A stretch of DNA of 64,000 nt. Origin: Leptolyngbya sp. FACHB-8 (lineage in GTDB: Bacteria; Cyanobacteriota; Cyanobacteriia; Elainellales; Elainellaceae). Below the pieces are notes generated by a model. The model saw only the letters and a list, made by a program, of their open reading frames with translations, made no database searches and was not told the origin of the DNA. Made by a program: the position numbers and the translations under genes. Numbering within the stretch: position 1 is the stretch's first letter; the number at the start of each line of letters is the position of its first letter. Location of the stretch: contig NZ_JACJOO010000064.1 in the NCBI RefSeq assembly GCF_014695575.1, positions 186,001 to 250,000 on the forward strand, given 5' to 3'. Positions 39,994 through 54,670 of this stretch are shown here, one piece after another.

Positions 39994-40064
39994 GGACGTT
40001 TTTCCTCACAGGCACTACGGGGAAGATGTAATGCGTAATACCCAAATTATCACAGGACTACACC

Positions 40065-45508: not shown

Positions 45509-47254
45509 TTAGCTCACAGAAACAGGGTTGGACTTCGCCACACTGGGCCGCCAACGGTTTGCAATGGGCATGCGCCAACCAGAGCCAAAGGCGCGATCGC
45601 TAATCTTTAACCCCGGTGCAGCTTGCTTGCGCTTAAATTCTGCAATGGTCACCAGGCGCACCACCTTGTCTACCACAGCCGGATCATGGCCTGCCGCGAC
45701 AATCTCAGCAGGGGATTGGTGATCCTCAACAAAGCGATCGAGAATGTCATCCAGCACATCATAGGATGGCAGAGAATCCTGATCCACCTGTCCTGGCTTG
45801 AGCTCAGCACTGGGGGGTTTGGTGATGACATTGTTAGGAATGACTTCTTGAGGATTTGACATGCCATAGTGCCACTCCTGCCAACCACCCTCGTTGAGCC
45901 ACTGGCACACTGAATAGACCCAGGTTTTGGGCACATCGGCGATCGCCGCTAATCCCCCATTCATATCCCCATACAACGTGCAATAACCCACCGCCATCTC
46001 AGATTTGTTACCCGTGGAAATCAGCAAATGGCCAAGTTTATTGGACACAGCCATCAGCAACACACCCCGAATGCGTGATTGAATATTTTCCTCGGCTATC
46101 CCAAACTGGGTTCCTGCAAACACAGGTTCCAAACTTTTATCAAAAGCCTTCATGGGCTCTTCGATGGGGAGCGTATGGGTTTGTATACCCAGGTTGTCGG
46201 CCAGGGACAGGGCATCCGTGATGGAGTGGTCAGAGCTGTAGGGGGATGGCATCAGGATGCCGAGTACATTTTCAGAACCGAGGGCGGCGGTAGCGATCGC
46301 CGCGACCAAAGACGAATCAATTCCCCCGCTCAGCCCCAACACGACCCGCTGAAAACCACACTTTTGCACATAATCTCGCACACCCAACACCAACGCTCCC
46401 CAAATTTCCGCTTCGGGACACTCGGGCAATGGGGTGATCGTACCCCGCTTGATATTTCTGGTGTTAGGGTCAAAGGTGACAATGCGCAAATCGGTTTCGA
46501 AGGATGTGGCCCGTTCCACCACTTCGCCATGCCGATTAAATGCAACGCTATTGCCGTCAAAAATCAGGTCATCGTTGCCACCCACCTGATTGGCGTAGAG
46601 GATGGGCAAATGGCACCGCTTCGCCCCATGGTGCAGCATTGCTTCGCGCATGTGTTGCTTACCTACACAGAAGGGCGAGGCCGATAAGTTCACCACCAGA
46701 TCAGCGCCTTTCGCTGCTAAATCATCCACCGGATTCACGTTATACGTGCGCTTGCCCCAAAACTCCTCGTCATTCCAGAGGTCTTCGCAGATGGTGACGC
46801 CGACCGTAACTGTGGTATCTCCGACAGCTACTTGAAAGCAATCGCTGGCATTGCCCCGCTCAAAATAGCGATCCTCATCAAACACGTCGTAGGTCGGTAG
46901 CAGCCGCTTGCGGAAATACTGCTGCACCTGCCCGCCTTCCAACAAAGCTGCCGTATTGTAAAGCGGTTTCCCACCCGACACGATCGCCTGATCATTGCGC
47001 TCCACTGTCCCCACCAGCACCGCTAACTCTGGGGGCAAATCTCGCGCCAATTGCTCCAGGGTGCTTTCCATCGTGGTGATAAAGCTGGGTTGCATCAGCA
47101 AATCGCGCGGTGGGTAACCACACAAAGCAAGCTCAGTGGTAAGGAGTAACCGGGCGTCTTGAGCGATCGCCTGCTGTGCCGCCTCCAAAATACGCTGAGC
47201 ATTACCAGCCAAATCTCCAATCGTGGGGTTGAGTTGAGCGATCGCAATTTTCAT
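45509..47254 (-). CDS. nadE: Glutamine-dependent NAD+ synthetase
   Basis: 581 residues: an N-terminal carbon-nitrogen hydrolase (glutaminase) domain with ITICED-type VTICEDLW (catalytic Cys) and KRLLPTYDVFDEDRYF (Lys), and a C-terminal synthetase domain with the ATP pyrophosphatase loop LGLSGGIDSSLVAAI. It amidates nicotinate adenine dinucleotide to NAD+, with ammonia from glutamine. It is the last gene of the NAD cluster pncB-nadD-nrtR-nadE, 9 bp after nrtR. Confidence 0.96.
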   Translation of the reverse strand: MKIAIAQLNPTIGDLAGNAQRILEAAQQAIAQDARLLLTTELALCGYPPRDLLMQPSFITTMESTLEQLARDLPPELAVLVGTVERNDQAIVSGGKPLYNTAALLEGGQVQQYFRKRLLPTYDVFDEDRYFERGNASDCFQVAVGDTTVTVGVTICEDLWNDEEFWGKRTYNVNPVDDLAAKGADLVVNLSASPFCVGKQHMREAMLHHGAKRCHLPILYANQVGGNDDLIFDGNSVAFNRHGEVVERATSFETDLRIVTFDPNTRNIKRGTITPLPECPEAEIWGALVLGVRDYVQKCGFQRVVLGLSGGIDSSLVAAIATAALGSENVLGILMPSPYSSDHSITDALSLADNLGIQTHTLPIEEPMKAFDKSLEPVFAGTQFGIAEENIQSRIRGVLLMAVSNKLGHLLISTGNKSEMAVGYCTLYGDMNGGLAAIADVPKTWVYSVCQWLNEGGWQEWHYGMSNPQEVIPNNVITKPPSAELKPGQVDQDSLPSYDVLDDILDRFVEDHQSPAEIVAAGHDPAVVDKVVRLVTIAEFKRKQAAPGLKISDRAFGSGWRMPIANRWRPSVAKSNPVSVS

Positions 47255-47263
47255 AGCTATTAA

Positions 47264-48001
47264 TTAGATAAACACCAAAGGTTTGTCTTTCAAAGGAGCA
47301 AACGCATCAGCGTCAAAGCGATAGAGCGCCGCAGGACGACCCGCCCCACGGGTTACTTTGACACCCGTATCCGTCAAGAACCCTAGCTTCAAAAGCCGCG
47401 AGCGGAAATTGGAATAATCAGAAAACCCATCCCCCAACACGGTGGTGTAAAGCTGGTACAGATCCCCCAGAGTAAACAGTTCAGGCAGCACATCAAAGGC
47501 GATCGGGCTATACTCCAACTTGTTACGAAGGCGGCGGTAGCCGTATTGCAGAATTTCACTATGGTCGAACGCTAAATCGGGAAGCTGGTTCATGGGAAAC
47601 CAGGCAATGCCGCTAACCCCATCCGCAATAAGCTCGGCTTCTGCAAACCGTACCAGGGCGAAGTAGCTGACAGAGAGGTAGCGATTGCCATAACTATCCG
47701 TCGCTTCCCGTGGATCTCGACTGGGACCGCCAAAGGTATAGAGCTGTTCCAGGTACAAATTATTGACGCGAATCTTCTCAGCCAGCACCCGATAAGCCGC
47801 TTCCTCCAGGGATTCCCCCTCCCGCACCAGAGTTCCTGGTAAGGACCAGCGATGCAAAAACGGCTCTTTATCACGCAACACTAACAGTACCAGCAGCCGA
47901 TTCTGGTCGGTATCGACCGAGAAGATGACATTGTCTACCCCGACTTTGAACTGGGCGAGTGCCCGCTGGGCAATAGACTTTTTGGGGCGGCGTCCTGGCA
48001 T
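47264..48001 (-). CDS. nrtR: NrtR-type NUDIX transcriptional regulator
   Basis: 245 residues. A NUDIX-like domain (about 15-150: VGVDNVIFSVDTDQNRLLVLL, SLPGTLVREGESLEEAAYRVLAEKIRV) is fused to a C-terminal winged helix (about 160-240: FTLGDLYQLYTTVLGDGFSDYSNFRSRLLKLGFL). The box reads RVLAEKIRV where catalytic NUDIX enzymes have REUxEExGU, so hydrolysis is probably lost and ADP-ribose binding kept, as expected for NrtR, which represses NAD genes. It lies inside the NAD cluster, overlapping nadD by 67 bp. I could not recognise its operator. Confidence 0.88.
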   Translation of the reverse strand: MPGRRPKKSIAQRALAQFKVGVDNVIFSVDTDQNRLLVLLVLRDKEPFLHRWSLPGTLVREGESLEEAAYRVLAEKIRVNNLYLEQLYTFGGPSRDPREATDSYGNRYLSVSYFALVRFAEAELIADGVSGIAWFPMNQLPDLAFDHSEILQYGYRRLRNKLEYSPIAFDVLPELFTLGDLYQLYTTVLGDGFSDYSNFRSRLLKLGFLTDTGVKVTRGAGRPAALYRFDADAFAPLKDKPLVFI

Positions 48002-48561
48002 GTATACAATTTCTCTCGATGAATATATTCCTCAATGGGCGGCGTGAGCACGCCGGATGCGTGAGTTTCGCGGAAACGGGTGGATGAGATGGGAAGACCC
48101 ATCAGGTCGGCGATCGCCACCCTGGCTCCCATCTGCTTTACTGTCTCCAGATCGGCTGTTTCAAGCTGGAAACCAGGGCGCGGAACTACCAGTAGCTTAA
48201 CTTGCCGTAGCAGGTCTTCCACCCGATACCAGCGAGGGAGTTGGGGCACGAGATCCGAACCGATGACCAGGGTAAATTCGGCCTGCTTCCAGTGTGCCCG
48301 AGCCCGTTCCACCGTGACTACAGCCCGAGGGCTACTCAAGTCAGGAAAGAGTTGAATAGTTTGGCGAGGTGGATCGATCGCCTGAATCATCAGGCTCAGC
48401 ATCCGCATTCGGTGCTCCAAAGGGGTCTGATGAGATTTAAAGGGGTTGTCAGAAGCCCACACAGCTACGCCATCAAAGTGATGGGAGAGCCAAACCAGAA
48501 TTTCCTGATGGGCAGCAGTAGGGGGATCGGCGCTGGTGCCGAAGAGGGCGATGTGTTGCAT
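47935..48561 (-). CDS. nadD: Nicotinate-nucleotide adenylyltransferase
   Basis: 208 residues with the nucleotidyltransferase HxGH-type motif altered to SADPPTAAHQE (T/HxxH), VVPRPGF, and the late ISSTRFRE (ISxTxxR) motif. It makes NaAD from nicotinate mononucleotide and ATP. The 3' end overlaps nrtR by 67 bp in another frame, so translation of the two is coupled. The tail CQDAAPKSLLPSGHSPSSKSG extends past the domain into the overlap and is probably not conserved. Confidence 0.9.
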   Translation of the reverse strand: MQHIALFGTSADPPTAAHQEILVWLSHHFDGVAVWASDNPFKSHQTPLEHRMRMLSLMIQAIDPPRQTIQLFPDLSSPRAVVTVERARAHWKQAEFTLVIGSDLVPQLPRWYRVEDLLRQVKLLVVPRPGFQLETADLETVKQMGARVAIADLMGLPISSTRFRETHASGVLTPPIEEYIHREKLYTCQDAAPKSLLPSGHSPSSKSG

Positions 48562-48611
48562 TTTCAGGGGTAGATGGGTGGATGGGTAAATGGTGGATAG
48601 GTGGGGAGTTA

Positions 48612-49991
48612 TTAATGGTGTTCAGTATAGGTTTGGTGGATGCGGTTGTGGATTTGGGTAGTAAGCTCAACCAGGGCGGGGGAGAGTTGGGGGGTGTAGA
48701 GGGTGGGTTGAGTAACTTGGCGGAGGTTAGCGGGAAGATGGCGAACCTGAGTAGTAGTGCGTCGGGCGATCGCACTTAAGGATTCCGGGTGCAATAACCG
48801 TTCTCCAGAACGCATGACAGGCTTTAAGAGCGGCTCTTCATCGGAATTTGGGGCTTCATTAGAAAGGACTAAGCGATCCTGGAGAAAGGTTCCGTCGCGA
48901 TCAGTCTGCCGAAAAACTTGCTTGCGTCCGGGGTAGGTTACCTTGCCGCTGGCCGCTTTCATGGTGGGGATGCCGTCAATTTCAACCAACTTATACACCC
49001 CATTCACGGGGGAACCGCTGACAAGCCGAGTGCCCAAGCCATAACCGTCGATACAAGCTCCAGCCTCGTTTAAGCGCTGGATTTCGTACTCGTCGAGGTC
49101 GCCACTGGCAAAGATAGTGACATCAGGGAGAAGCGATCGCACCTTCTGCGATAACTCGATGAGGTTACCCGAATCCAGTCGCACGCCACTGAGCTCGATC
49201 TCCCCTGCCCGTACACGCCGAGCCAACGCCTGGGCAGCTTCCAGCGTATCGTACGTGTCAATGAGCAATGGGGCTTTTGGGAAATAACGATGGAAGGCTG
49301 TAAATGCCTGTTGTTCGCTTCCTTCCATTGCCTCTAGTGCCATCACCAGGGCATGAGCCATTGTGCCGCTGGGTCGATAGCCCAATTCCAGCGAGGCCAG
49401 CACGTTGGAGGTCGCATCCATCCCTCCAGCCAAAGCCGCCCGCGCGGCCCAGAGGGAGGCTTGAGGGCCAAAAGCACGCCGGGTACCAAACTCCAGCAGG
49501 CTAGCGGACTCACCTGCCACGTCCCGTAAGCGCGCTGCTCGCGTTGCCACTAGGGTTTGATAGTTCAGGGTATTAAGCAGATAAGTCTCAACTAACTGAG
49601 CCTGCCATAGGGGCGCTTCGATCCGTAGCAAGGGTTCGTTCGCAAATACCACAGTCCCTTCCGGCACAGCCCAGACGTCCCCCTCGAAACGAGCCTCTGC
49701 TAACATCTGCCAGAAGGCATCTGGGACGCTATCAAATACTCCGGTCGCTTGTAGCGCCTCGATATGCTCGGCAGTAAATTGCAAATGCTTCAAATAATCC
49801 AAAACTTGCGTCAGTCCCATGGCAACCAGATAGCCAAAGTTATCAGGAAGACGACGGGCAAATAGTTCAAAGCTAGCCCGCTTTTGATGCAGCCCTTCTC
49901 CCACATAACAGGCCGACATGGTGAGTTGGTACAAATCAGTTAGCAGACTGGTATCAGACAGACGCACTTGAGAAAGAGCCAGGGATTGCAT
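48612..49991 (-). CDS. pncB: Nicotinate phosphoribosyltransferase
   Basis: About 459 residues. Recycles nicotinate to nicotinate mononucleotide with PRPP. Visible motifs are LLTDLYQLTMSACYVGEG at the start, SLLEFGTRRAFGPQASLWAARAALAGG, the catalytic-His region PSGTMAHALVMALE and the phosphate-binding SGVRLDSGNL; GYGLGTRLVSGSP closes the core. Start at 49991 is preferred to the ORF start at 50042. It is first in the NAD cluster, 51 bp before nadD. Confidence 0.95.
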   Translation of the reverse strand: MQSLALSQVRLSDTSLLTDLYQLTMSACYVGEGLHQKRASFELFARRLPDNFGYLVAMGLTQVLDYLKHLQFTAEHIEALQATGVFDSVPDAFWQMLAEARFEGDVWAVPEGTVVFANEPLLRIEAPLWQAQLVETYLLNTLNYQTLVATRAARLRDVAGESASLLEFGTRRAFGPQASLWAARAALAGGMDATSNVLASLELGYRPSGTMAHALVMALEAMEGSEQQAFTAFHRYFPKAPLLIDTYDTLEAAQALARRVRAGEIELSGVRLDSGNLIELSQKVRSLLPDVTIFASGDLDEYEIQRLNEAGACIDGYGLGTRLVSGSPVNGVYKLVEIDGIPTMKAASGKVTYPGRKQVFRQTDRDGTFLQDRLVLSNEAPNSDEEPLLKPVMRSGERLLHPESLSAIARRTTTQVRHLPANLRQVTQPTLYTPQLSPALVELTTQIHNRIHQTYTEHH

Positions 49992-50302
49992 AGGGCCACC
50001 ATCCGGTAAGGGGCACGGGATAATTTTGTGATCTGGATGCATTAACCTCGACCGGGTCGACTACACCAACCCTCTATCTAGGCCCGATATTCCTGGTAAC
50101 ACAAGACATCGAATATAGTGATTTTAACCAAAAATATTCTGTCCGTCCAGAAAGCAAACAGCTATTTTTTCAACGTTCTCTAACGTTTGACTGAATCAAA
50201 GCCACCTTAAGAACCCCACATTATATTAAATACAACTAAAACTAAATATTTCTTAACTTCAATTTCTGCCAGTATTGTCCCCGTCACAGCAACCTTAATT
50301 TA

Positions 50303-50366: not shown

Positions 50367-50414
50367 CCTATGTTCAGGGATGGGACATTTTTCGCCCCCA
50401 TCCCTAAACATAGG
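50367..50414. repeat. Palindrome CCTATGTTCAGGGATGGG
   Basis: 18-bp arms with one mismatch. Its CCTATGTT ends match those of the palindrome at 13361-13407, but the inner arms differ. Confidence 0.75.
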
Positions 50415-50418
50415 CAAG

Positions 50419-50479
50419 CAGAAGACTCAAAAGGCTGTGCCGCCCACTTCGGGGACGGCGCAGCCTTTTGAGTCTTCTG
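50419..50479. repeat. Palindrome CAGAAGACTCAAAAGGCTG
   Basis: 27-bp arms with one mismatch and apex CTTCGG. Four bases from the previous palindrome and next to the short 83-bp element. Confidence 0.85.
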
Positions 50480-50489
50480 TTGATCAAGC

Positions 50490-50572
50490 CAGCAATTCTC
50501 AGCTTTGAAGCCCGAAAATAGGCCGCCGAAGGCAGGTTATTTTCGGGTTGGATTCCAAAATGAGAATTGCTG
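50490..50572. mobile_element. 83-bp internal-deletion form of the CAGCAATTCTCA element, copy 3
   Basis: Keeps both ends (CAGCAATTCTCA / TGAGAATTGCTG) and one hairpin (CCCGAAAATAGGCC... / complement with changes), losing the second. Flanked by identical 9-bp repeats TGATCAAGC (50481-50489 and 50573-50581). This shows that only the ends are needed for insertion. Confidence 0.9.
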
Positions 50573-50608
50573 TGATCAAGCTGAGCTACTTGACTGTGAA
50601 TATAACAA

Positions 50609-50633
50609 GGGCACAGCTAATGTAGCTGTGCCC
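50609..50633. repeat. Short perfect hairpin before the tandem units
   Basis: GGGCACAGCTA, loop ATG, and its perfect complement, directly 5' of the triplicated region. Confidence 0.7.
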
Positions 50634-50639
50634 CGAGTG

Positions 50640-51390
50640 TTTACAGTGATTCGTCATGTATTGATAGCAACAGCACTCAGATACGTAACTAAGGAACTTT
50701 CCCAAATTCAATCAGCCTACCTGGAGCGAAAACGGTATGACTCGTTAAGGAACGGGTCTTATTTCTTCAACTCCCGTTTAGATCACCTTAGAAAGTATTA
50801 GAAACCCTTATTGGGTGCTGCACTTTGACAAAGAAACCGATGTAATGAAACAGCTCCTTTTCCTTAATGGAGTGAACGATCCGTAACTTTACAGAAATCA
50901 GGTCGATTGAAAAGCAACATCCACATCGGCGAACTAAGGAACCTTCCGCGATTGATGTATTCGACTTGGAGCGAAACCTTTTAGCAATTCAGTTAGATAA
51001 CTAAATTGTGGTTTTAAAACTCCCTTCTGTTTAGCTGGGAAAGTATTAGAACAACCTGTGAACTGCTGGATTGAGACAATGCAACAGAACTTGACTTAAC
51101 AGCTCCTTTTACCTCATGTGGTGAATGATTTCAAAACCTTGTGGATTGAAATCGTCGGATAACAGGACTTTGCTGATAGCAGCGCCCAGGTAAATCAACT
51201 GAGGAACTTTCTTACATTTTCAATCGATACAAATGGAGTGAAATAATCTCAATAACCAGTTCAAGACTGTGCTTATTGTTTTCAATCTCCCATTTTGACT
51301 AGATTAGAAAGTATCAGGGCCACCTGTTGGGTACTGCACTTGGTCAACGAGACAGATTTGATAGGACAGCTCTTTTACCTCATGTAGTGA
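50640..51390. ncRNA. Three diverged tandem copies of a structured unit (candidate ncRNA array)
   Basis: Units begin near AAGGAAC at 50691, 50936 and AGGAAC at 51201. Conserved blocks occur at matching distances: GGAG(C/T)GAAA at +32, +32, +34; CTCCC at +80, +84, +86; GAAAGTAT at +100, +103, +106; ACAGCTC(C)TTTT at +159, +163, +165. ACTTTC can pair with GAAAGT and, nested inside, GGAG with CTCC, with the arms changing together in part (unit 2 uses TTCC/GGAA). The intervening sequence is strongly diverged, and there is no long ORF. Transcription direction, if any, is unknown; a bidirectional terminator lies at 51680. I cannot match it to a known RNA family. Confidence 0.55.
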
Positions 51391-51679
51391 ATATGAACTT
51401 GGCTGTTTAATCTGCCAGGGAAGCTATCTGCTTCAATTACTACTATAAAGCCTACAAACCAGGGATCAAGACCTTGAAATCAAAGTTTACTTTGAATGAG
51501 TATCTACTTCACAAAAAACCCCAAAGCTCCGTATACCAGAGGTTATGAAAAATGAAGATAATGCAGAAGTTTGCATTTTTATTCTCTAAATATCACAACC
51601 GTATTTTCAGGGATCATCTATAAATTATGATTAATTCCATAATTTTTACGTTTCAAGCAATTCAAATAAAACAAAAAAA

Positions 51680-52065: not shown

Positions 52066-52132
52066 GGCAGGATTTGAACCGCAGCGATCGCCCATCCTCC
52101 TCAAGCCTCATCCATTGCACCAAAACCCTGCC
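52066..52132 (-). pseudogene. tRNA-like remnant
   Basis: On the minus strand GGCAGGG and TCCTGCC can pair as an acceptor stem; GGTGCAATGGATG resembles a D-arm and GGTTCAAATCC a T-loop. Only 67 nt separate the ends, the D and T stems do not close, and a HIP1 octamer (GCGATCGC) interrupts the region before the T-loop. It is probably a decayed tRNA, possibly tRNA-Arg-like. Confidence 0.35.
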
Positions 52133-52167
52133 AAAATAAGAAAAATCGCGTCTTGGAAGAGAAAGCC

Positions 52168-53278: not shown

Positions 53279-54670
53279 CTATCCTTTGTTTTTGGAACTA
53301 CGAAGTTTCACCATCCATATATTACCATTCTGCTGAACTATTAATTTCTTGCACGACTGTAGAAAAGCTGGATACTTCTTATTAATATTTAGCTGTTTAA
53401 GCGCTGTTGTAATAGGGCACTTATACTTCTGGCTGAATTGGCTACCAACTATGGAAATAGTGATAAATTCCGAAGGTTTATTTGCTTCTATTGCTTCAAT
53501 TATGGATACTATAGCTGCTTCTAGCTCTTCGGCGCTTTTAAGATTTAATTGTGCCTTTTGCACTGAATTGCTAGTAATTGTAATAGCAGATTTTCGAGTC
53601 TCACTTAGTTGTTGTTTAGCCTCCTGTCTTGCCTGATATTGTTTGACTTGCTCTGAATCTGGAAGAGTAAAGAGGCTAACATAAAGCCCAGATTCTCCTG
53701 GAACCTGATGAATAGCAAACAGGTTGGAATAGCTAACTAATAATTCCTTTACAGATCTACCAGGCAAGTAAGTTCCAATGATTTCAGAGATGCGAAAGCC
53801 TATTCTTTCCTGGAATCGTTTTGACACAACTGCAAGCTGAATAAAGGTTTGACTTGTTTTTTGTTGTTCTTCCCAAACAATATGTTGTAGGTGCATGATC
53901 GCATCTTCCAGGCTGGGCAACATTGCAGTTGGATATATACAGGTGTCTCCAGTACGGCTATTCAGAATAGAAAGAGTGCCATCCGACTGCTTTTGAATCT
54001 GGTAGGCGATCAACCCTTGTTGTTGTAACTTTATGTACAGGCTGGTCATTACTTTGTCAGAAGAACACACTAAAACTTCTTGAACATTTTTATAGTGTTC
54101 TTTCAGAGAAGTACCAACTGTAATCATCTTGCCATCGGCCATGTCCTTGCCTTTTGGTACATGAATCAGGTCATAATGGCGTTGATGCAATTCCTCATCA
54201 TGTTTTCCGAGTTTTTTCCAGTCAGCAAAGGCAATCTTGACTTGAAGTGGATAAGTGCATAAACTAGCCAGAAAATTTTCTTGCTCGGCACTCAGTTGTA
54301 GATTTTCAGCATCAAGAAGCAGAAGGGAAATTCCCCTGTTTTCTAGCTCAGCTACGGTTGTTCCTTGATCAAGAATTTCTAAGTCAGATACTAGAAGCTG
54401 ATATTCTTGCGTGCTTAAGAAGGTGGTATCAAAAAAAAGCTTCAATAGTTTTTGGCACTTCAAGACCTTTTGGTCATCGGGAACTTCGCCTAAAGTAGTG
54501 GCTAGTTTTTGAAATAGTTTGGACTGATTCGTCGGATTTTGCCAGTCATTCTGGCGAATGCCTTCAGCTAGCCAGTTTGGATTTTGTTGGTATTGAGTAG
54601 CGATCGCCTGACAAACCCTGTGGGCAAGCTGGGATGCAATATCCAAAGTATTTCTGGTGTCTGTAGACAT
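53279..54670 (-). CDS. NYN (PIN-like) ribonuclease-like domain with two LOTUS/OST-HTH-like domains
   Basis: 463 residues. The first 110 are helical and unassigned. A NYN/LabA-like PIN domain follows: LLLLDAENLQL (Asp120), KIAFADW, KGKDMADGK (Asp176, Asp179) and LVCSSDKVMTSLYIKLQQQGL (Asp205), the acidic residues expected to hold metal. Two winged-helix-like domains at about 275-335 and 400-458 (QTFIQLAVVSKRFQERIGF, EFITISIVGSQFSQKYKCPI) look like OST-HTH/LOTUS modules, which bind structured RNA. This order, NYN plus LOTUS repeats, parallels animal MARF1/limkain. The gene is A+T-rich compared with its neighbours, suggesting acquisition. It is convergent with the ABC gene. Confidence 0.72.
   Translation of the reverse strand: MSTDTRNTLDIASQLAHRVCQAIATQYQQNPNWLAEGIRQNDWQNPTNQSKLFQKLATTLGEVPDDQKVLKCQKLLKLFFDTTFLSTQEYQLLVSDLEILDQGTTVAELENRGISLLLLDAENLQLSAEQENFLASLCTYPLQVKIAFADWKKLGKHDEELHQRHYDLIHVPKGKDMADGKMITVGTSLKEHYKNVQEVLVCSSDKVMTSLYIKLQQQGLIAYQIQKQSDGTLSILNSRTGDTCIYPTAMLPSLEDAIMHLQHIVWEEQQKTSQTFIQLAVVSKRFQERIGFRISEIIGTYLPGRSVKELLVSYSNLFAIHQVPGESGLYVSLFTLPDSEQVKQYQARQEAKQQLSETRKSAITITSNSVQKAQLNLKSAEELEAAIVSIIEAIEANKPSEFITISIVGSQFSQKYKCPITTALKQLNINKKYPAFLQSCKKLIVQQNGNIWMVKLRSSKNKG

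Follow-up and report, generated by a model that had tools for sequence, protein, structure and literature searches.

We identified, on the minus strand of a 64,000-nucleotide window from Leptolyngbya sp. FACHB-8 (the whole stretch analyzed), a probable gene for a structured non-coding RNA that is conserved among cyanobacteria. The gene would extend from position 51491 to 50608 and is larger than first described. We favor, with a probability of about 0.6, the reading that the product acts as a regulatory RNA in its own right and, in some lineages, is also able to pair with the ribosome-binding site (RBS) of a neighboring gene, here called X. Comparison of homologous sequences established the secondary structure, the coding strand, the conserved layout of the promoter, and the triplication of a domain consisting of helices P1, P2, and P3.

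Structure, strand, and layout of the RNA gene

The first-pass annotation had described three diverged copies of a structured unit at positions 50640–51390. These copies are present, with start-to-start distances of 245 and 265. In a self-BLAST, they showed 68.8–73.6% identity to each other with E values down to 4e-12, and therefore the three-copy pattern is beyond chance. The proposed nested pairing of ACTTTC/GAAAGT and GGAG/CTCC corresponds to the arms of the nested helices P2 and P3, and the remaining conserved blocks were assigned to P1 and to the GAGGUAAA segment. A covariance model of the P1-P2-P3 domain (R2), derived from 40 homologues with the genus of the window excluded, was applied to window positions 40000–64000. 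It gave exactly three significant matches, all of them on the minus strand, while the next best match had an E value of 0.065. The nested helices and the three domain matches confirm the suggestion of a duplicated structured RNA. The range originally given was too short, as the most conserved part (51347–51450) and the promoter (up to 51491) lie partly outside. Likewise, a hairpin with a T-run at about 51680 is located outside the RNA, on its promoter side, and is not the terminator of the array. The features of the gene are compiled in Table 1.

Table 1. Predicted elements of the RNA gene in window coordinates, listed in the direction of transcription
Feature	Position	Strand	Remarks
Conserved upstream box AGTAAACTTTGATTTC, putative activator site	51476–51491	−	Consensus GTAAAGTTTAGTTTCA; 28 nt before TATAGT
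−10 element TATAGT	51442–51447	−	Conserved TANNNT; consensus scan TTGATC-16-TATAGT
Helix P6, 5' hairpin GAAGC-AGATA-GCTTC	51420–51434	−	90.7% paired in homologue alignment
Core: P4 (GGCAGAU/AUCUGUC), P5 (AACAGC/GCUGUC), unpaired CUCGU	51347–51416	−	Most conserved in all homologues
GAGGUAAAA segment of core	51373–51381	−	Conserved, unpaired, P5 side
Domain copy A (P1-P2-P3 hairpin), joined to core	51174–51342	−	R2, E 1.1e-7
Linker A-B, diverged core remnant; GAGGUAAAA-GGAGCUGUU kept, 5' arms unrecognizable	51072–51173	−	Sequence, fold
Domain copy B	50912–51071	−	R2, E 1.4e-7; fold
Linker B-C, diverged core; P4-like hairpin with other sequence (ACC-GAU/AUC-A-GGU)	50827–50911	−	Fold
Domain copy C	50665–50826	−	R2, E 1.1e-8; fold
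Intrinsic terminator GGGGCACAGCUACAUUAGCUGUGCCCU-UGUUAUAUUC, directly past copy C	50608–50634	−	Terminator scan

A second covariance model, R1, represents the most conserved part of the RNA (143 positions); it predates the strand assignment and reads antisense, and its bits are sequence-driven. It matched the window at 51306–51449 with an E value of 1.5e-22, where the P4/P5 core with GAGGUAAA and AUCUGUCUCGU is present. Copy A alone is joined to this intact core and the promoter, and copies B and C come after diverged core remnants, of which linker A-B gave no significant R1 match and linker B-C a weak one (E 0.07). Since R1 and R2 matches occur almost one to one in 100 other loci, the form found in the window, with one core and three domain copies, is unusual. 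We infer a transcript start at about 51435, just before P6. The predicted transcript of about 830 nt would then run to about 50605 on the minus strand.

The structure was tested on an unfitted MAFFT alignment of 70 minus-strand homologues. It comprises 53 pairs in nine helices and is 89.9% paired, with double-sided changes in 35 of the 53 pairs (219 cells). None of 500 shuffles matched any of the measures observed, with p values that are weakened by the kinship among the homologous sequences. When the helix partners were slid by 1–3 columns, pairing amounted to 41–47%; the structure had been drawn from one member row, which favors the unslid version in this paired-cell measure and affects the double-change counts less. 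Examples of covariation are columns 208/410 of P1, with G-C in 38 and A-U in 27 sequences, and columns 260/345 of P3, with A-U in 44 and G-C in 26. P4 is nearly invariant, so that its support comes from conservation more than from covariation. Single-sequence folds of the window RNA were not more stable than those of shuffled sequences (z of −0.5 to −1.4). Covariation, named beforehand as the test on which the RNA would stand or fall, is strongly present among the homologues, and the covarying P1-P2-P3 domain occurs on the RNA strand of the window as three R2 units.

Decayed fragments of a transposon or protein gene had been named as the explanation to be eliminated. They would suit a gene-poor region with diverged repeats and strong hairpins nearby, as well as the location of some copies on Nostoc plasmids. 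The covariation, however, rules them out as the main explanation. In addition, the promoter is conserved, the distribution is broad, no reading frame is conserved, and no other significant copy of the array sequence was found in this genome. Viral contigs searched for the exact pattern of the RNA gave no match either. We regard decay as an exceedingly improbable origin. A phage or virus origin was rejected on the same lack of a viral-contig match.

The strand was initially misread, and the RNA is encoded on the minus strand. In the alignment of 70 sequences, the ratio of G.U to C.A was 273:89 when read on the minus strand. Among 121 non-redundant sequences, the mismatches tolerated in P1 comprised 98 C.A versus 14 G.U on the plus strand, and P2 showed the same C.A-type excess (49 versus 21). 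A near-invariant P4 pair, which reads A.C (109) or A-T (12) on the plus strand, becomes G.U or A-U on the minus strand, and the outer pair of P3 is fully paired on the minus strand only. The inner pairs of P3 alone lean the opposite way, with 12 versus 1 on the plus strand. The promoter geometry supports the minus reading as well, because the GTAAAGTTTAGTTTCA box and the TANNNT element sit where a minus-strand promoter should. Both were found in 97 homologous loci, and in 87 of these the box precedes TANNNT by 28 or 29 nt, as in the window. The window sequence TTGATC-16-TATAGT was found independently by a consensus scan of the minus strand, in which such a hit by itself is at background frequency. 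A plus-strand reading was thus rejected on the basis of the wobble asymmetry and the promoter geometry.

We also considered that GAGGUAAA might be the ribosome-binding site of a small-protein gene, as GAGGU is close to invariant and resembles a Shine-Dalgarno sequence. Yet hardly any ATG, GTG, or TTG is suitably spaced from it (9 TTG in 69 sequences), the conserved blocks fall out of frame with each other through indels, and there is no conserved open reading frame. Such a gene has hardly any likelihood, and judged from these sequences a peptide product of the RNA is unlikely.

Distribution in cyanobacteria and comparison with known RNAs

The array gave no match at or above the gathering score of Rfam 15 (0 in the window), as its designation as a novel candidate had implied, and the sub-threshold matches were apparently due to chance. 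Being missing from Rfam, the RNA is probably missing also from genome annotations that rely on it. An array private to this locus, however, was not borne out: the RNA is conserved across many cyanobacteria, where homologues are about 270 nt long and mostly single-copy. In the aligned homologues the unit measures ~330 nt with the promoter counted in.

In a BLAST-type search, 20 of 36 genomes from the same family gave matches, including that of the window; 13 of the loci aligned to the array end near 51347–51420, and a few others were short and chance-like. With R1, the RNA was detected in 23 of the 36 genomes of its own family and in 187 of 218 genomes (86%) of another large family whose named members are Nostoc-like. 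Across the phylum, 89 of 386 cyanobacterial genomes and 52 of 143 genera, about a third of those sampled, carried a match. Named carriers are Nostoc, Fischerella, Scytonema, Calothrix, Crocosphaera watsonii WH 8501, Cyanothece, Spirulina, Planktothricoides, Microcoleus, Coleofasciculus, and Leptolyngbya; copies were also found on three Nostoc plasmids. This breadth points to a basic role. The covariance model, the strand, the promoter, and candidate contact sites are now defined, making expression and targets directly testable in laboratory strains.

Two to three full-length copies in tandem occur in L120, L154, L150, L140, and G263, with Spirulina, Oscillatoriaceae, and Planktothricoides represented. 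The tandem copies read in L037 and L054 have one promoter box per copy, unlike those in the window. A group of variants (L080, L081, L082, L083, and L085), matched by R1 at E values of 1e-5 to 2e-8, has kept the P6 hairpin, GAGGAAATATCA, and the P1 arm; the core differs and is devoid of GACAGAT. These RNAs possibly form a second subtype or a paralogue family.

Yfr1, Yfr2, and others are broadly conserved cyanobacterial sRNA genes and resemble the new RNA in being widely conserved non-coding RNA genes of this phylum. They are, however, much shorter (54–57 nt for Yfr1; PMC4734099) and carry other motifs, whereas the new RNA is without any Rfam match. NsiR1, made up of short repeats arrayed upstream of hetF in Nostocales (PMC3610870), had been cited for comparison. 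The likeness holds for tandem copies of a cyanobacterial non-coding unit, but not for size, unit, promoter layout, or distribution. The window units comprise ~250 nt, are mostly single-copy elsewhere, have NAPRTase and ABC ATPase genes instead of hetF as neighbors, and occur well beyond Nostocales.

Two predicted sRNAs of Nostoc PCC 7120, 2462444f (258 nt) and 268249f (340 nt), were seen on Northern blots and are induced by nitrogen deficiency (Brenes-Alvarez et al., PMC4734099). By their description, which is the basis of the comparison, they are similar in size to the new RNA and conserved in many heterocystous genomes. They are reported to be exclusive to heterocystous strains (PMC4734099), unlike the new RNA, and among the RNA matches listed none lies at the coordinates of either. 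We see a chance of roughly one in four that one of them is the new RNA. In that case the transcript has already been seen, whereas its family, structure, and breadth do not appear in the literature consulted, the coverage of which was partial.

Gene X and the proposed role of the RNA

In 62 of 117 named loci, the RNA is directly followed by the co-directional gene X of about 255 amino acids. The X protein gave no match in Pfam, NCBIfam, PADLOC, or PDB sequences. Its AlphaFold model has a mean pLDDT of 74.7 with unreliable 38 N-terminal residues, and Foldseek related the C-terminal part to DNPH1, TIR-STING, SARM1/TIR domains, and a CAP12-type TIR protein. With TM-scores of 0.3–0.4 by query length, a TIR/DNPH1-like fold is a fold-level suggestion only. 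X is single-copy and slowly evolving, often with 60–75% identity across aligned loci, and has an invariant Glu in SPxVCVExGYA (e.g., L028:1501-2268). Through its linkage to the RNA, X comes to light as an uncharacterized, conserved, TIR-like protein. In the window genome, X resides on another contig than the RNA.

The position of X suggests a cis-regulatory, riboswitch-like leader, in which a ligand on the core would switch P4 between its own hairpin and the RBS of X, with unlinked copies as relics. The compact, very conserved core would fit this explanation, as would the RBS region itself. Where X starts 29–42 nt after P1, the sequence preceding its ATG (ACGAGACAGG, GCGAGGCAGA, ACGGGGCAGA, GACGAGGTAGA, and others) is complementary to the invariant AUCUGUCUCGU, and substitutions in this region keep the pairing through G.U. 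In shuffle tests, the complementarity was significant (p ≤ 0.05) for 18 of 50 X-linked loci, most of them with a short leader. It is missing in most long-leader (Nostoc-like) loci and at most X genes unlinked to the RNA, and therefore does not qualify as the general function; we rejected pairing with the RBS of X as a general rule. As an exception, two X genes beside decayed RNA retain GAGGCAGA.

Other observations speak against the leader. Among 386 genomes, 67 had both RNA and X, 22 the RNA only, and 19 X only, in a tally whose strict filters may have overlooked weak RNAs. An intact RNA adjoins remnants of X in L163 and L175, and many loci have a convergent gene next on the RNA-strand side, unlike the upstream, co-directional position of a riboswitch. 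The RNA is therefore not merely the leader of X. Free-standing tandem copies, moreover, have their own promoters. A TANAAT motif between P3 and P2 occurs in 32 of 50 X-linked versus 10 of 51 unlinked RNAs (p 7e-6, a value that, like the shuffle p above, takes no account of relatedness), a contrast that is weakened, and not created, by a few loci misassigned as unlinked. Furthermore, two genomes without the core retain precisely the 3' stretch before X. From these two findings we infer an X promoter inside the 3' half of the RNA gene; transcription of X probably starts there, downstream of the core, which is at odds with a leader controlled by that core. Overall, we regard the leader explanation as rather unlikely, while X-linked copies may have a cis-only leader role. 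An obligate leader of X was rejected because of the copies without X, and one of pncB because of the terminator between array and pncB in the window.

The linkage to X also raises the question of whether the RNA binds or restrains this TIR-like protein, as an RNA antitoxin or scaffold with a logic similar to type III toxin-antitoxin systems, with the tandem domains as multiple binding sites. The predicted TIR/DNPH1-like C-terminal domain, the tandem copies, and the maintenance of the RNA where X decays would agree with this. However, X evolves slowly and is single-copy, unlike horizontally moving toxins; it persists without the RNA in the 19 genomes mentioned and gave no PADLOC match. Type III systems have a ToxN-like endoribonuclease downstream of the RNA repeats, and X is predicted to be TIR/DNPH1-like instead. 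We consider restraint of X very unlikely.

In our preferred reading of a stand-alone regulator, a putative activator at the GTAAAGTTTAGTTTCA box would drive a discrete RNA that acts in trans. Two conserved, unpaired segments, GAGGUAAAA on the P5 side and AUCUGUCUCGU at P4 and its junction with P1, are where mRNAs or a protein would likely bind. An exact 11-mer complement was present in this genome only in the RNA itself and at one other, probably coding, place, yielding no trans target. In lineages with X 29–42 nt past the RNA, the RNA or leader could mask translation of X when P4 opens. In the FACHB-8 genome, X would have moved away, leaving a free-standing RNA that gained two domain copies, which perhaps bind more of the same partner.

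Given the probable X promoter in its 3' half, the RNA cassette would also carry the control region of X. This recalls the actuatons, whose sRNA cassettes double as the 5' region of the gene that follows (Kopf et al. 2015, PMC5386190), in that a cassette with its own promoter is free-standing or directly upstream of a gene, depending on the genome. Actuatons, however, are defined by read-through into a gene lacking its own start site, whereas X seems to be equipped with a promoter inside the cassette. The internal TANAAT of the X-linked copies argues against actuaton status for X, and the window copy ends in a terminator. A more far-reaching and tentative proposal is that one cassette serves both as a free regulator and as a switch, by promoter and RBS antisense, for a TIR-like nucleotide-handling protein. 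If so, domain multiplication as seen in the window would tune the dose or valency of the RNA.

Genomic neighborhood

Directly beyond the array, at 45509–50042 on the minus strand, lie a NAPRTase gene (pncB, supported by Pfam) and then nadD-, Nudix/NrtR-, and nadE-like genes, assigned by sequence. The adjacency of the RNA to an apparent run of NAD synthesis genes is suggestive in view of a TIR-like X. We treat it as a coincidence, because the terminator at 50634–50608 separates the array from pncB and because the sister genome G035 has no pncB-like reading frame in the ~4 kb read beyond its copies. Three strong hairpins are located between the RNA and pncB (50367–50572), with 27-nt arms of 93% complementarity at 50419–50479; the middle one resembles a bidirectional terminator.

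ARAGORN found no tRNA or tmRNA in the window. A degenerate tRNA-like stretch (GGCAGGG...GGTTCAAATCCTGCC) that it did not call is present at 52073–52142 on the minus strand, just upstream of the ABC ATPase gene, and the protein encoded at 53279–54670 (minus) has a marginal match to the NYN domain, which is RNase-like. In some Nostoc and Nodularia copies, one of them on a plasmid, the next gene on the RNA strand belongs to the Hsp20 family, as annotated in L238 (2155-2607) and as judged by sequence resemblance in L110, L128, L152, and L166.
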